Positions 24,204 to 29,908 of a stretch of 64,000 bases of DNA are shown here, piece by piece. Origin of the DNA: Methanomassiliicoccales archaeon PtaU1.Bin124 (GTDB lineage Archaea; Thermoplasmatota; Thermoplasmata; Methanomassiliicoccales; UBA472); the NCBI GenBank assembly GCA_002067865.1, contig MVRC01000015.1:1-64000 (forward strand), read 5' to 3'. Both the position numbers and the translations under genes were made by a program. Each line of letters opens with the position of its first letter. Position 1 is the first letter of the stretch. Below the pieces are notes generated by a model, which ran no database searches, was not told the origin of the DNA, and saw nothing but the letters and a program-made list of their open reading frames with translations.

Positions 24204-25367
24204 TTACTTCTTGGCCTTCTTTGCAGCAGGCTTCTTGGCGGCTGGCTTCTTCGCCGGTGCCTTCTTGGCAGCGACCTTCTTGGCCGGGGACTTGACCGCG
24301 GCCTTCTTCGGGGCGGCCTTCTTTGCCGCCGGCTTCTTGGCGGCAGCCTTCTTCTTGGCCGGGGCCTTCTTGGCCTTCGTTCCACCGATCTCGAAGAGCG
24401 AACGGATCTCCTTGCCAACGACCTCGATCTGGCTGGTGGCCTCGGCCTTCTCCATCTTCTCCAGGCCCTTCATGCCGGACTTGGCGTCGGCCATCCACTC
24501 CTTGGCGAACTTGCCCTGCTGGATCTCCTTCAGCATCTTGGTCATCTCCTTGCGGGTGGATTCAGTGATGAGCCTCTCCCTACGGCTCAGGCCACCGTAC
24601 TCGGCGGTGTTGGACACGTTGGTCCACATGTGCATCATGCCGCCCCTCTGGATCAGGTCAACGATGAGCTTGACCTCATGCAGGCATTCGAAGTAGGCGA
24701 TCTCCGGCTGGTACCCGGCCTTGACCAGGGTGTCGAAGCCAGCCTCGATCAGGGCGGTCACTCCGCCGCACAGGACGGCCTGCTCGCCGAACAGGTCCGA
24801 GGTCGCCTCCTCGTAGAAGGTGGTCTCGATGACGCCAGCCTTGGTCGCGCCGATGCCCTTCGCCAGGGCCAGGGCGATCTTCTTGGCGTTCTTGCTGGCG
24901 TCCTTCTCCACCGCGATGAGCGCTGGCACGCCGAACCCTTCCACGAAGGTCTGGCGCACCATCGGGCCAGGGGACTTCGGTGCCATCATGATGATGTCCA
25001 CGTTGGCTGGCGGCTTGATCTCCTTGAAGTTGATGCTGAACCCGTGAGCGAAGTCCAGCGCTGCGCCGGCCTTCAGGTTGGGGGCGACATCCTTGGCGTA
25101 AACGGCTCCCTGGACCTCGTCCGGGAGGAGGATCATGACCACATCGGCGTCCTTCACCGCATCGGCCACCTCGGCCACCTTCATACCGTTCTTCTTGGCC
25201 TCGTTCCAGGACTTGCCGTTCTTCCTCAGTCCCACGACCACGTTCAGGCCGGAATCCTGCAGGCACATCGACTGGGCCTTGCCCTGGCTTCCGAACCCGA
25301 GCACCGCGATCTTCTTTCCCTTCAGCACCTTCAGGTCTGCATCAGAATCGTGATAGATCTTTGCCAT
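24204..25367 (-). CDS. ilvC: Ketol-acid reductoisomerase with a histone-H1-like C-terminal tail
   Basis: A class I ketol-acid reductoisomerase making dihydroxy acids for Val, Leu and Ile. Residues 1-329 are a complete enzyme: GKKIAVLGFGSQGKAQSMCL is the NADPH-binding motif and LIEAGFDTLVKAGYQPEIAYFE the catalytic helical region. A further 58 residues (330-387) consist of 25 Lys, 22 Ala, 7 Pro and 4 others in AAKKPAAKK-type repeats. Normal enzymes end near 330. ATG 25367 is preceded by GTGAGGT. A TATATA box lies at 25419-25424, so ilvC has its own promoter downstream of the ilvB pair. Confidence 0.93.
   Translation of the reverse strand: MAKIYHDSDADLKVLKGKKIAVLGFGSQGKAQSMCLQDSGLNVVVGLRKNGKSWNEAKKNGMKVAEVADAVKDADVVMILLPDEVQGAVYAKDVAPNLKAGAALDFAHGFSINFKEIKPPANVDIIMMAPKSPGPMVRQTFVEGFGVPALIAVEKDASKNAKKIALALAKGIGATKAGVIETTFYEEATSDLFGEQAVLCGGVTALIEAGFDTLVKAGYQPEIAYFECLHEVKLIVDLIQRGGMMHMWTNVSNTAEYGGLSRRERLITESTRKEMTKMLKEIQQGKFAKEWMADAKSGMKGLEKMEKAEATSQIEVVGKEIRSLFEIGGTKAKKAPAKKKAAAKKPAAKKAAPKKAAVKSPAKKVAAKKAPAKKPAAKKPAAKKAKK
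24207..24380 (-). repeat. Lys/Ala/Pro repeat tail of IlvC
   Basis: This segment codes for residues 330-387 of ilvC and is made of imperfect repeats of the unit (A/P)AKK(P/A)A. The DNA repeats follow the protein repeats, with GCCTTCTTGG-type units on the plus strand. Confidence 0.85.
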
Positions 25368-25470: not shown

Positions 25471-27189
25471 TCAAGGCAATTGCTGGATGCGATTGACGTC
25501 CACCGTACCGTTCATCTCACAGCCCCATCTGCAGCGTCCATGGATGACATCTCTGGACGATTTACCTCCCGGCACCATCGGCAGCATGTCCTCCTCCGGG
25601 TCCACGTGGATGTCGATGAGGAACGGCACATCCGAACGGAAGGCCCGTTGGAACGCCTCCTCCAGCTCCGACGCCTTCTCCACCTTCACGCCCTCCGCGC
25701 CGTAGGCATGGGCCATCATGACGAAGTCGGGGTTGCGGGCCAGGTCGGTCCCGGAATAGCGGCGTCCGTATGCCACGTTCTGGAGCTGCCTCACCATGCC
25801 CAGCCAGTTGTTGTTCATGAGGCAGATGACCACCGGCAGGTCCTCGTTCACGGCCGTGGCCAGCTCGCGGGAGTTCATCATCAGCGAGCCGTCCCCGGCG
25901 ATGTCGACCACCTGCTTCTCACGGTGAGCGTACTTCACTCCCAGCGCCGCCGGGAACCCGAAGCCCATCGTGCCCATGCCGCCGGAGGTGATGAAATGCC
26001 CCGGGGTCTTGATGCGCAGGAAGTGCGCGGCCCACATCTGGTTCTGGCCTACCTCGGTGCAGACATATGCGTCATCTGCCAGCACCTTGCTCAGCTCGTA
26101 GATGACCTTCTGCGGCTTGATCGGCTCGCCCGGCAGGTCCATGCTGCAATCACATTGCTGGCGCAGATGTTTCATCCTCCTGCCCCAGGGCGTGTCCTTC
26201 CGAGTGCGGCCCAGCCCTTTGATGATGTTCTGCAGGGCCTTCCTGGCATCCCCTACGATGCGCACCTTGGTCCGCTTGTCCTTGCCTGCTTCCATCGGAT
26301 CAATGTCGATCTGGATGATCTTGATGCTCTCCGGAAGGTCGGACTGGACGGTGGTGGACCGGTCGCTGAACCTGGCGCCTACGACGAGCATGACATCGCA
26401 TTGCTCGAACGCCCTTCGCGCTATCCCTCTGCCATGCATGCCCATCATGCCCAGCGCCAGCGGGTGCTCCTCTGGAATGATTCCTTTCCCCATGAGGGTG
26501 GTCGAGACCGGGGCCATGAGCATCTCCGCCAGGGTGAGCAGCTCATCGGTGCAGCGGGACCATATCGCCCCTCCGCCCGCCAGGATCATCGGCCTTTCTG
26601 CCGAACTGAGGAGGCGTACAGCATCGAGCACGCCGCTCAGGTCCTCCGAGGACCGGTCCAGCAGCCCATGGTACTTAGGCCACGGTTCCGGCACCTCCTG
26701 CTTCAGCACATCCACCGGCAGATCGATGTGCACCGGCCCCATCCTTCCGCTGCTGGCGATGCCGTAGGCATCCTCCATGACGGCGGGCAGCCGATCCGGA
26801 CTGAGCACGCGGAAGCTGTGCTTGGTGATGGGCATCATCAATGAGAAGACGTCCGCCTCCTGGAAGGCGTTGTCACCGAGCCTCTCCGCCGGCACCTGCC
26901 CGGTCATGACGATGAGGGGCGAGGAGTCGGCATAGGCCGTCGCCACACCAGTAACGAGGTTCGTCGCCCCAGGTCCGGAGGTGGACATGCAGACCCCAGG
27001 TTTCCCAGTGGACCTGGCATACCCGTCCGCCATGTGGGCCGCGCATTGCTCGTGGCGGACCAGCACATGGTGTATGGACGACTGCAGCAGGTCGTCGAAT
27101 ATGGGCAGATTATAACTGCCGGGGTATCCGAACATCACCTCGACCCCCTGCTTCTCCAGCAGGGTCAGCACCGCCTTGGATCCTCTCAT
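25471..27189 (-). CDS. ilvB: Acetolactate synthase large subunit, copy 2
   Basis: A 572-residue ThDP enzyme that condenses pyruvate to acetolactate. It has VRHEQCAAHMADGYAR with the catalytic Glu, a central FAD/binding domain with VVGARFSDR, and the ThDP motif GDGSLMMNSRELATAVNEDLP ending in NNNWLGM. It is closely similar to the copy at 27430-29154, but the N-terminal loop is GYPGSYNLP where the other has GYPGGVTLP. The start has the strong site TAAGGAGGT (27197-27203). It is preceded by a leader ORF and a hairpin. No regulatory small subunit gene is adjacent. Confidence 0.93.
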   Translation of the reverse strand: MRGSKAVLTLLEKQGVEVMFGYPGSYNLPIFDDLLQSSIHHVLVRHEQCAAHMADGYARSTGKPGVCMSTSGPGATNLVTGVATAYADSSPLIVMTGQVPAERLGDNAFQEADVFSLMMPITKHSFRVLSPDRLPAVMEDAYGIASSGRMGPVHIDLPVDVLKQEVPEPWPKYHGLLDRSSEDLSGVLDAVRLLSSAERPMILAGGGAIWSRCTDELLTLAEMLMAPVSTTLMGKGIIPEEHPLALGMMGMHGRGIARRAFEQCDVMLVVGARFSDRSTTVQSDLPESIKIIQIDIDPMEAGKDKRTKVRIVGDARKALQNIIKGLGRTRKDTPWGRRMKHLRQQCDCSMDLPGEPIKPQKVIYELSKVLADDAYVCTEVGQNQMWAAHFLRIKTPGHFITSGGMGTMGFGFPAALGVKYAHREKQVVDIAGDGSLMMNSRELATAVNEDLPVVICLMNNNWLGMVRQLQNVAYGRRYSGTDLARNPDFVMMAHAYGAEGVKVEKASELEEAFQRAFRSDVPFLIDIHVDPEEDMLPMVPGGKSSRDVIHGRCRWGCEMNGTVDVNRIQQLP

Positions 27190-27211
27190 CTTCTTACCTC
27201 CTTACAATGGT

Positions 27212-27241
27212 TCGAGGGCGCCCTCCGGGAAGGGGCCTCGA
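27212..27241 (-). promoter_or_regulatory. Leader hairpin upstream of ilvB copy 2
   Basis: On the minus strand TCGAGG and CCTCGA enclose a CCCTTC/GGAGGG inner complement, 30 bases in all. It starts directly after the TGA of the Val/Leu-rich ORF and ends 22 bases before ilvB. There is no T-run after it, so it is not a plain intrinsic terminator. Sequence and length match the hairpin at 29186-29215. Confidence 0.75.
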
Positions 27242-27379
27242 TCAAACGACAACGGATAGGACGACCGGGAGGCTCTCTAGTGCTAGTGATTGGGACCGCA
27301 ACCTCAATAAAAATTTGCATGGTCCAGCACCACAGGTGATACCGTCGTTGCATATCATCGTTACTTTCCGTGGCATCAT
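27242..27379 (-). CDS. Putative Val/Leu-rich leader peptide of ilvB copy 2
   Basis: A 45-codon ORF with a very strong ribosome site, AGGAGGTG, four bases before ATG 27379. The second half is rich in branched-chain residues and ends in ESLPVVLSVVV directly before TGA. The stop abuts the hairpin at 27212-27241, and ilvB begins about 53 bases after the stop. This is the layout of an amino-acid-operon leader peptide. The N-terminal half (VTMICNDGITCGAGPC) has three Cys and no evident role. A TATA-like CGATAAAC at about 27415-27422 could drive it. A second TATA (27306-27316) lies inside the ORF and would make a transcript without an in-frame start. Confidence 0.6.
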   Translation of the reverse strand: MMPRKVTMICNDGITCGAGPCKFLLRLRSQSLALESLPVVLSVVV

Positions 27380-27429: not shown

Positions 27430-29154
27430 TCACGCACCAGATATGGTGGGCGTGAAGTCGATGTTCGGAGCGCGCTCGCCGTTCTGGGCCCAGCGGCACC
27501 GCCCGTGGATGACCTCCTTGGACGACTTTCCTCCCGGCTGCATGGGGAGGATGTCCTCCTCCGGGTCCACGTGGATGTCCACCAGGAACGGCACATCCGA
27601 ACGGAAGGCCCGTTGGAACGCCTCGCGCAGCTCGGACGGACGCTCCACCTTGATCGCATCTGCACCGTACGCTTTCGCCAGCATGACGAAGTCCGGGTTC
27701 CTCTGCAGGTTCGTTCCCGAGTAGCGCTTGTCGGAGAACAATTTCTGCCACTGGCGCACCATGCCCAGCCAGCCGTTGTTCATCAGGCAGACCACCACCG
27801 GCAGGTCCTCGTTCACCGCGGTGGCGAACTCCTGCACCACCATCTGCAGCGAGCCGTCCCCGGCGATGTCGACCACCTGCTTGTCGCGGTGGGCGTACTT
27901 CACGCCGATCGAGGCGGGGAAGCCGAATCCCATGGTACCAAGTCCACCGGACGTGATGAAGTGCCGTGGGTTCTTCATGCGCAGGAAGTGCGCGGCCCAC
28001 ATCTGGTTCTGGCCTACCTCGGTGCAGACATATGCGTCATCTGCCAGCACCTTGCTCAGCTCGTAGATGACCTTCTGCGGCTTGATGGGCGTTTCGTTGA
28101 TGTCCATATCGCAGTCGCACATCTTCCTGAGCTGCTTCATGCGCTCGGACCAGGCGGTGTCCTTTTTCGTCTTCCCTAGTCCCCTGATGATCTGCTGCAG
28201 CACCTTCTTCGCATCGCCGATGATGCGAACCTTGGTGCGGGGATTCTTGCCCGCCTCCATCGGGTCGATGTCGATGTGGATGATCTTGACCGATTCGGGC
28301 AGCTCCGAGTCCAGGCCGGAGGAGCGGTCGCTGAAGCGGGCGCCTATCGCCACCATCACGTCGCATTCCAGGAACGCCTTGCGGGCGATCTCCCTGCCAT
28401 GCATGCCCACCATGCCGAGCGCCAACGGGTGTTCCTCGGGTATGATGCCCTTGCCCATCATGGACGTGGCCACCGGGGCTAAGAGCATCTCTGACAGCTT
28501 GCGCACCTCGTTGGAGGCATTGGACCACATCGCCCCACCGCCCACGAGGAGCATGGGCCTCTCCGCCTCGCTGAGCAGCTTTACCGCCTCCAGCACACCA
28601 TGCAGGTCCTCATATGGCGCTGGCACCGGGAACTCCTCGTCCAGCAGCGCATCCGGCAGTTCGGTCTTCAGCACGTCCACCGGGAGGTCGATGTGCACCG
28701 GCCCCATGCGGCCGTTGATCGCGATGTTCCAGCCCTTCTTGAACGCTTCGGGCAGCATCTTCGGGTCCAGCACACGGAAGTTGTGCTTGGTGATGGGCAT
28801 CATCAATGAGAAGATGTCCGCCTCCTGGAAGGCGTTGTTGCCCAGCATGCTGGTGGACACCTGCCCGGTCAGCACCATTAGCGGGGACGAATCGGCGTAG
28901 GCCGTGGCCACTCCCGTCACCAGGTTCGTGGCACCTGGGCCGGATGTGGCCAGACACACTCCCGGCCTTCCGGTGGCGCGTGCGAATCCATCGGCCATGT
29001 GAGCGGCGCACTGCTCATGGCGGACCAGGACGTGGTGTATGGATGACTGCAACAGGTCGTCGTATATCGGGAGGGTGACCCCTCCTGGATATCCGAACAT
29101 GACATCCACGCCTTGTTTTTCCAACAGAGTCAGAACCGCTTTGGAACCTTTCAT
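27430..29154 (-). CDS. ilvB: Acetolactate synthase large subunit, copy 1
   Basis: A 574-residue acetolactate synthase, the first enzyme of branched-chain amino acid synthesis. It has GYPGGVTLPIYDDLL, VRHEQCAAHMADGFAR with the catalytic Glu, IGARFSDR and the ThDP motif GDGSLQMVVQEFATAVNEDLP followed by NNGWLGM. It is a tandem paralogue of the gene at 25471-27189, with long stretches identical. The start has AAGGGGAT 6 bases upstream. A leader ORF and hairpin lie in its 5' region. The ilvN/ilvH regulatory subunit is not in the window. Confidence 0.93.
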   Translation of the reverse strand: MKGSKAVLTLLEKQGVDVMFGYPGGVTLPIYDDLLQSSIHHVLVRHEQCAAHMADGFARATGRPGVCLATSGPGATNLVTGVATAYADSSPLMVLTGQVSTSMLGNNAFQEADIFSLMMPITKHNFRVLDPKMLPEAFKKGWNIAINGRMGPVHIDLPVDVLKTELPDALLDEEFPVPAPYEDLHGVLEAVKLLSEAERPMLLVGGGAMWSNASNEVRKLSEMLLAPVATSMMGKGIIPEEHPLALGMVGMHGREIARKAFLECDVMVAIGARFSDRSSGLDSELPESVKIIHIDIDPMEAGKNPRTKVRIIGDAKKVLQQIIRGLGKTKKDTAWSERMKQLRKMCDCDMDINETPIKPQKVIYELSKVLADDAYVCTEVGQNQMWAAHFLRMKNPRHFITSGGLGTMGFGFPASIGVKYAHRDKQVVDIAGDGSLQMVVQEFATAVNEDLPVVVCLMNNGWLGMVRQWQKLFSDKRYSGTNLQRNPDFVMLAKAYGADAIKVERPSELREAFQRAFRSDVPFLVDIHVDPEEDILPMQPGGKSSKEVIHGRCRWAQNGERAPNIDFTPTISGA

Positions 29155-29185
29155 TCTCTAATCCCCTTGATTTTCACACATTGCT

Positions 29186-29215
29186 TGAGGCCGCCCTCCC
29201 AAAGAAGGTGCCTCA
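29186..29215 (-). promoter_or_regulatory. Leader hairpin upstream of ilvB copy 1
   Basis: TGAGGC and GCCTCA on the minus strand enclose an inner CCTTC/GGGAGG complement, 30 bases in total. It begins 2 bases after the TGA of the leader ORF and ends 31 bases before ilvB. Its sequence is clearly related to the hairpin before copy 2 (shared GAGGC, CCTTC, GGAGGGCG and CCTC blocks). Confidence 0.75.
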
Positions 29216-29217
29216 TG

Positions 29218-29283
29218 TCAAATAACGACAACCACGCCCAAACCCAGAAGAACAACCGGGACGCTCGTGCGTACGTTTGACAC
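29218..29283 (-). CDS. Putative Val-rich leader peptide of ilvB copy 1
   Basis: A 21-codon ORF starting at GTG 29283 and ending in VPVVLLGLGVVVVI before TGA: 12 of its 20 residues after the start are Val, Leu or Ile. Many Val codons are GTT or GTA, which are uncommon in this GC-rich region. The TATA box at 29308-29315 puts the transcript start at about 29283-29284, so the ORF would be translated from a leaderless end. A TTG at 29292 could add three residues. The stop is next to the hairpin at 29186-29215. Confidence 0.6.
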   Translation of the reverse strand: MSNVRTSVPVVLLGLGVVVVI

Positions 29284-29307
29284 GGTTTTCAAGGATGCCT
29301 GCCATCG

Positions 29308-29320
29308 TATATAAAAATTT
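29308..29320 (-). promoter_or_regulatory. TATA promoter of the ilvB copy 1 leader
   Basis: AAATTTTTATATA on the minus strand. Its downstream edge is 24 bases from GTG 29283. The copy 2 leader has a similar AAATTTTTATT at 27306-27316. The rest of the 300-base region between ilvB and the hemerythrin gene (29321-29458) is AT-rich with no further gene seen. Confidence 0.6.
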
Positions 29321-29458
29321 AGTCAATGAATTTCGAAAGTCGCACGATACTACTGGCTTTTACCGATGAGAGCATTTTTCACTGAACCATCATTGATTTT
29401 CCATTTTTTGATAGCCGTCCCGCCATGGTTATATGCGCATAGGCCCAAGGACGCCTCT

Positions 29459-29908
29459 ATGCCGTTCGTGGAATGGAGCGACAAGCTTAGCGTGGGACTG
29501 CCGGAGATCGATGACCAGCACAAGGAGCTGATCAATATCCTGAACCGTCTGCATTCGGCCATGGTAGAGGGCAAGGGGAAGGTCGTCCTGAAGGACACCT
29601 TGGCCGATCTGGCAGATTACACAGTGACGCACTTCTACACCGAGGAGCGTTACATGACCAGGTATCGCTATCCACAGATGGGGCAGCACCGCCTGGAGCA
29701 CGAGGCATTCGTGGCTAAGGTCAAGAAGTTCCAGGAGGACTTCGATGCTGGTAACGCCACCATCACCATCGAACTGCTCCGCTTCATCAAGGAATGGCTG
29801 GTGAACCACATCAGCGGCACCGACATGGCGATGGGGCATGCCATCTCCCCCATGGCCGCCAAGGCGTTCTCCACCGCGCCAAGGGGCGACAGCGCGCATT
29901 CCCCGTGA
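29459..29908 (+). CDS. Bacteriohemerythrin
   Basis: A 149-residue hemerythrin with a di-iron four-helix bundle. The ligands are visible: IDDQHKELINILN, THFYTEERYM, HRLEHEAF and HISGTDMAMG. It begins with the usual PFVEWSDKLSVGLPEID. It binds O2 in the cytoplasm for sensing, storage or delivery. ATG 29459 is about 30 bases after GGTTATATG and has no ribosome site, so the mRNA is probably leaderless. Confidence 0.9.
   Translation: MPFVEWSDKLSVGLPEIDDQHKELINILNRLHSAMVEGKGKVVLKDTLADLADYTVTHFYTEERYMTRYRYPQMGQHRLEHEAFVAKVKKFQEDFDAGNATITIELLRFIKEWLVNHISGTDMAMGHAISPMAAKAFSTAPRGDSAHSP

Follow-up and report, generated by a model that had tools for sequence, protein, structure and literature searches.

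A conserved leader ORF and adjoining RNA hairpin upstream of ilvB in Methanomassiliicoccales as a candidate archaeal leader-peptide attenuator

One question raised by the ilv locus of the Methanomassiliicoccales archaeon PtaU1.Bin124 is whether a short valine-rich ORF, located together with a hairpin upstream of ilvB, the gene for acetolactate synthase, with which the common part of valine, leucine and isoleucine synthesis begins, serves to control this gene according to the supply of branched-chain amino acids (BCAA). The locus was analysed within a stretch of 64,000 nucleotides (hereafter, the window), in which ilvB copy 1, ilvB copy 2 and ilvC are consecutive on the minus strand. The following elements were located, all of them on that strand:

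29308..29315, minus: TATA box TTTATATA, about 25-27 nt upstream of the leader GTG (read from the sequence)
29218..29283, minus: leader ORF ilvL, with GTG at 29283, 21 codons (MSNVRTSVPVVLLGLGVVVVI) and TGA at 29220-29218 (sequence; coding signature in relatives)
29221..29235, minus: putative regulatory codon run GTG GTT GTC GTT ATT (VVVVI), whose last codon starts 9 nt before H2
29215..29283, minus: hairpin H1, formed between the first part of the leader ORF and the BCAA codons at its 3' end (MFE fold; RNAalifold and synonymous shuffles in relatives; weak for the window alone)
29187..29214, minus: hairpin H2 (GAGGCACC..GGCCUC), 28 nt, directly 3' of the leader stop (fold; double changes in relatives; covariance model R1)
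29179..29186, minus: conserved tail 3' of H2, AAGCAAUG, consensus NNNCAUUG (position-wise information in relatives)
29161..29168, minus: Shine-Dalgarno-like AAGGGGAT of ilvB copy 1 (sequence)
27430..29154, minus: ilvB copy 1, acetolactate synthase large subunit, ATG at 29154 (TIGR00118, 723 bits)
27242..27289, minus: decayed leader of ilvB copy 2 (...SLALESLPVVLSVVV, then stop), without start codon (sequence)
27214..27239, minus: H2-like hairpin of ilvB copy 2 (R1 match at 27203-27239, E 6.6e-4)
25471..27189, minus: ilvB copy 2 (TIGR00118, 688 bits)
24204..25367, minus: ilvC, ketol-acid reductoisomerase, 3' of both ilvB copies (TIGR00465 and NF004017)

The TATA box, the GTG at 29283 and the 21-codon Val-rich ORF before ilvB, which had been proposed from the letters of the window, were all confirmed on the minus-strand sequence, the frame of ilvL reading GTG TCA AAC GTA CGC ACG AGC GTC CCG GTT GTT CTT CTG GGT TTG GGC GTG GTT GTC GTT ATT TGA. 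The hairpin announced after this TGA is present, with a gap of three bases (CAT) and not two, and is 28 nt long. The use of rare Val codons also held, GTT and GTA making up 5/8 of the internal Val codons of the leader, a share that is 9% in six large window ORFs. An alternative upstream ORF from the ATG at 29305 (30 codons), which overlaps the TATA box, was rejected; in the relative L005 this frame is only ten codons long and stops where the leader ORF starts. The original prediction had also seen the same pattern before ilvB copy 2 and taken this as an argument against chance. Its end (LPVVLSVVV followed by the stop) and its hairpin were indeed kept, but no in-frame start codon was found 20-35 nt after the copy 2 TATA, and as an argument against chance this copy is weak. 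Copy 2 of ilvB in the relative G001 has no leader. In another relative, G224, intact leaders (L172, L173) precede both ilvB copies. On the other side of the leader, a divergent gene for a hemerythrin-domain protein (29366-29908, plus strand) has a short promoter region in common with it.

The leader arrangement before ilvB is real and conserved. Leaders were read in 80 relatives chosen by ilvB similarity and then in more from class- and order-wide searches, most of the compared sequences being metagenome-assembled. One layout was common to 70 non-redundant ilvB leaders from several Thermoplasmata families (the decayed copy 2 of the window being among the 70): a TATA box, about 27 nt on a leaderless GTG/ATG ORF of 20-30 codons, a Val/Leu/Ile run at the end of the ORF, and H2 at the stop. 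It was present in families f1, f3, f4 and f5, of the same order as the window, and in f8 and f24, of the same class; in these six families the leader ATG or GTG is mostly 24-28 nt past the TATA centre. The leader C-termini of relatives include VVVVI, VVVVLIR, AVVIIIS, TAVVVL, TVIVVLG and VLVDLRILRP. Relatives without a conserved Val/Leu/Ile ORF, which the original prediction had named as evidence against itself, were therefore not the outcome, since ORF, BCAA run and hairpin were kept across several families despite widely differing nucleotides. When a leader was defined by a TATA-spaced ORF with at least 7 V/I/L in the last 14 residues, 90 of 98 ilvB leaders (near-duplicates included) were recovered, versus 11 matches in 704 kb, both strands, around other genes. 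On the IlvB tree the trait was strongly clustered, with 3 changes versus 28 in shuffles. Family f13 and two f22 genomes probably have more divergent leader forms, and in the gut-type family f2 no leader was found in the loci checked, except before the second ilvB copies of one genus.

Three further observations concern the gene and its surroundings in these families. Several f22 genomes (L330-L332, L344, L345, L350) carry a different conserved element, about AGGTTTATCTAACATCTGTGGCG, upstream of ilvB, which in several of them includes a very short ORF ending in RFI and a stop. The ilvB start deduced by homology in f3 and f4 (L018-L027, L133-L138) is often TTG, GTG or even CTG, with a good Shine-Dalgarno, and is possibly inefficient. 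The idea that the leader replaces feedback inhibition through IlvN was discarded, a short IlvN being found in clades both with and without leader.

The leader ORF was shown to be under coding constraint and to be specifically rich in BCAA codons. Among the differing codons of the last 12 positions of aligned leaders, 34% were synonymous in frame versus 11% and 14% in the other two frames, and their mean BLOSUM score was +1.0 in frame versus -0.9 and -0.2; the comparison of synonymous with out-of-frame changes suggested at the outset came out in favour of coding constraint. Val, Leu and Ile together account for 61% of the last 12 codons, and Ala, Phe, Met, Trp, Tyr and Cys together for about 6%; this is a short upstream ORF rich in codons for the products of the pathway. 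The V/I/L codons chosen are rarer in the leader than in its own ilvB in 38 of 38 leaders tested, with a relative adaptiveness of 0.46 versus an expected 0.78 (p 7e-12, which is optimistic because leaders within a clade are related). ATT was used 5.8-fold over expectation, TTG 4.3-fold, GTA 3.2-fold and GTT 2.7-fold, and ATA was avoided. Leaders of the same clade share descent, and the leader counts given here and above are for this reason not independent.

Hairpin H2 was likewise shown to exist. RNAalifold recovered it both from the f8 alignment, where several of its pairs show double changes, and in clades A and B. Its basal stem varies between clades at the sequence level (GAGG:CCUC, GGGG:CCCC, GCCC:GGGC); the basal pairs in alignments A1 and A2 were read by eye because of a one-base offset between the GAGGC and GAGGAC groups. 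The mixed-clade alignment A4 was misaligned and gave no useful structure. H1 was also returned by RNAalifold in the f8 and clade A and B alignments, with a sequence that is entirely different from clade to clade. Its mean z against synonymous shuffles was -1.05, better in clades A, B, E and F and weak elsewhere and for the window alone, whose leader has an unexceptional folding energy (z -0.67). Downstream of H2 the tail shows A at +5 (1.6 bits), U at +6 (1.1) and G at +8 (0.9), with A[TA][TC]G at +5..+8 in 33 of 44 sequences, and its distance to H2 is constant, independent of the ilvB start. The covariance model R1, built on H2 plus tail and including the window sequence, found the window H2 at E 4.4e-6. 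Known signals were also searched for. No Rfam covariance model, including T-box and riboswitches, matched the leader; sigma-70 and terminator scans of the window leader gave nothing and there is no U-run; and no hairpin plus U-run terminator was seen in the leaders of f1, f3, f4, f5 and f8. No conserved antiterminator-type alternative pairing was found, RNAalifold giving H1 plus H2 and not 2:3; an alternative 1:4 pairing is possible in f8 and was not seen in other clades.

Spacing was then read in 40 leaders of clades A-E, H and the CoA-ligase set described below, those having a codon in the register concerned. Codons 8, 11, 14 and 17 nt before the H2 base were V/I/L in 95-97% of them, and the codon 5 nt before H2 was V/I/L in none of the 25 leaders still having a codon there. 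The last V/I/L codon lies 8 nt before H2, or 9 nt in four leaders of the group of the window (clade E) and 11 nt in one leader. This 8-9 nt spacing is that of almost every ilvB leader of the Methanomassiliicoccales, and of three acyl-CoA ligase leaders, regardless of the position of the stop codon, which precedes H2 by 2, 5 or 6 nt according to clade. Since the distance from stop to H2 varies by clade, it is H2 that fixes the place of the run, wherever the peptide ends, as a ribosome stall site would lead one to expect. This constant spacing between the putative regulatory codons and a hairpin is the strongest single argument that it matters for H2 where on the BCAA codons the ribosome stands. 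In the f8 leaders the run has another placement, with H2 starting before the stop.

A search of 147 genomes with R1 returned the ilvB leaders and one further set, in three genomes (L314/G376, L315/G189, L316/G197). These are MLFDNQSLLPVKVAVSVV-type leaders (the motif being followed by the stop) in which spacing and tail are unchanged, and the gene that follows at about 190 nt encodes an AMP-forming acetate/acyl-CoA ligase; the leader of G376 starts with TTG. Extra weak matches (E above ~4e-4), located inside coding sequence or elsewhere, were treated as chance. The search suggests the ligase as a second candidate target of the element, and the enzyme could feed branched-chain acids into BCAA synthesis. 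No leader attenuator was found in the gene's own upstream 1.5 kb at LeuA/CimA (30 loci), TrpE (12), HisG (11) or IlvD (21), some of these loci not being first in their operon. An independent version occurs in three f18 genomes (L335 1700-2200 in G159, L336 300-800 in G256, and L339 in G541), where a Shine-Dalgarno-led leader is followed by a GC hairpin, a six-T run and then ilvB. These leaders end in LLLSVLVILLIIIVQ, LLLVIIILVILIIVQ or LLLLVIVILLLIIVQ, with a BCAA-rich run of 12-14 residues. Since U-runs terminate archaeal RNA polymerase (PMC8116511), the f18 leaders are transcriptional attenuators by their anatomy. A BCAA leader before ilvB would thus have been used more than once in the class, which raises the chance that the window version acts on transcription.

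The attenuation-like reading originally given to the window leader is supported by these comparisons, and the region very probably acts in cis as a ribosome-mediated attenuator of ilvB, by which charged Val-, Leu- and Ile-tRNA is sensed. Judging by the anatomy, the transcript would start at or next to the leader GTG, so that the first ribosome would initiate leaderless. It would translate a peptide whose last codons are rare Val/Leu/Ile ones; they belong to the 3' arm of H1, and the last of them stands 8-9 nt before H2. Under a shortage of branched-chain aminoacyl-tRNA, a ribosome halted at these codons would hold H1 open and cover or abut the H2 base, so that ilvB would be expressed; with a good supply the ribosome would finish and leave, H1 and H2 would form and expression would be lowered. 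We infer the leaderless translation, the stalling, and the direction and level of control from sequence. In a simple footprint model, the probability of H2 was about 0.72 without a ribosome and 0.01 with a ribosome at the stop codon; it was high with the ribosome at least 14 nt away and fell on the last two or three codons. Because a stall at least 14 nt from H2 leaves the hairpin intact in this model, steric blocking does not by itself account for the full length of the run. The BCAA codons form one side of H1, which a ribosome stalled on the run would have to open.

One important question is at which level such an attenuator would act. The original prediction had warned that, with no T-run, control might act on translation or by another RNA mechanism. 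This caution was justified: sequestration of the Shine-Dalgarno is unsupported, and a U-run version occurs only in another family. The most likely output is transcription elongation or termination at H2 and the AUYG tail, for which we see about an even chance. The wider proposal, that Thermoplasmata use translation-coupled transcription attenuation and that in Methanomassiliicoccales a hairpin with an AUYG tail stops or pauses the archaeal RNA polymerase without a U-run, on a small regulon of ilvB and the CoA ligase, is tentative and falls somewhat short of that. It is rather doubtful that the ribosome on the leader acts instead on translation, by setting access to the ilvB ribosome-binding site through alternative pairing of the H2 arms or nearby RNA. 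In some leaders the Shine-Dalgarno of ilvB can be paired by arm 3 (CAUCC) or arm 4 (CCUC), as it is in the MFE folds of L022 and L044, but over all leaders the cost of opening it did not differ between the states (free 3.45, stalled 3.67, terminating 3.78 kcal/mol; stall versus termination p 0.70). Since this cost is the same in all states, simple sequestration is unsupported; two folding analyses with masked footprints showed no consistent effect, and it was rejected as the switch. Upstream of the acyl-CoA ligase, moreover, H2 is separated from the distant ligase start by a poorly conserved short ORF, and this distance speaks mildly for control of transcription or RNA and not of local initiation.

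The constant distance of the tail from H2, whatever the ilvB start, would also suit a cleavage or stability site at H2 and the AUYG tail (e.g. for FttA/aCPSF1 or 5'-3' decay), with the stalled ribosome protecting the transcript. aCPSF1/FttA is an RNA-cleaving termination factor (PMC11616081, PMC8448881), but FttA prefers U-rich RNA (PMC11616081) and the tail is short and not U-rich; we regard decay or processing as unlikely. Coding constraint and a hydrophobic C-terminus are features that a functional small (membrane) peptide, tied to ilvB by co-transcription alone, would share. Such a peptide is very improbable here, as the hydrophobic residues are V/I/L only, with the other residues counted above nearly absent, the codons are rare, the run is positioned by H2 and not by the peptide end, and the sequence ahead of the run is hardly conserved between clades. 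Equally improbable is a structured RNA, protein-binding operator or amino-acid riboswitch in which the ORF is incidental: two hairpins and a conserved tail would fit it, but the in-frame synonymous bias, the complete change of H1 sequence between clades and the lack of an Rfam match speak against it.

Leader-peptide attenuation is a founding example of RNA-based regulation, and was not known outside bacteria. In the E. coli ilvB, ilvG, trp and his attenuators the leader ORF carries end-product codons, the regulatory codons lie in region 1 and a 2:3 antiterminator is formed. The window leader resembles them in its end-product codons and in its adjacent 1:2 and 3:4 hairpins, which recall the terminating configuration, whereas its regulatory codons lie in region 2, directly before H2, with no 2:3 antiterminator found and no U-run. 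It would work like leader-peptide attenuation but, lacking the U-run and with no antiterminator found, is not classed with the transcription attenuators of the E. coli type. Among known systems the closest is ilvBNC of Corynebacterium glutamicum, whose leader is MTIIRLVVVTARRLP and whose Val codons are needed for the valine response (Morbach 2000, in PMC11857589). That system has the same target gene, a short BCAA-rich leader without ribosome-binding site and downstream hairpins, but it is bacterial, uses a terminator/antiterminator switch and has about 240 nt between leader and ilvB. In the window the promoter is archaeal, H2 adjoins the stop codon and ilvB begins about 60 nt after the leader stop; a U-run is absent and an antiterminator was not found. 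In Saccharolobus, early elongation and aCPSF1 have been suggested to limit transcription by promoter-proximal elongation control (PMC8448881); this control is global and has no tie to leader peptides or amino acids (PMC8448881). No archaeal mechanism of transcription attenuation or antitermination was known as of 2021 (PMC8448881), and we found no later example in the open-access literature, although one may have been described elsewhere. If the proposed attenuator is real, nascent-peptide sensing of supply arose or was kept in archaea with a eukaryote-like RNA polymerase and leaderless mRNAs; transcription-translation coupling would become directly testable in archaea, and a hairpin-based signal for the archaeal RNA polymerase would be hinted at.

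At the 3' end of the same gene cluster, IlvC carries a Lys/Ala-rich, histone-H1-like C-terminal tail (24204-24380) of about 57 residues past the KARI domains, and the tail in L010 is similar.
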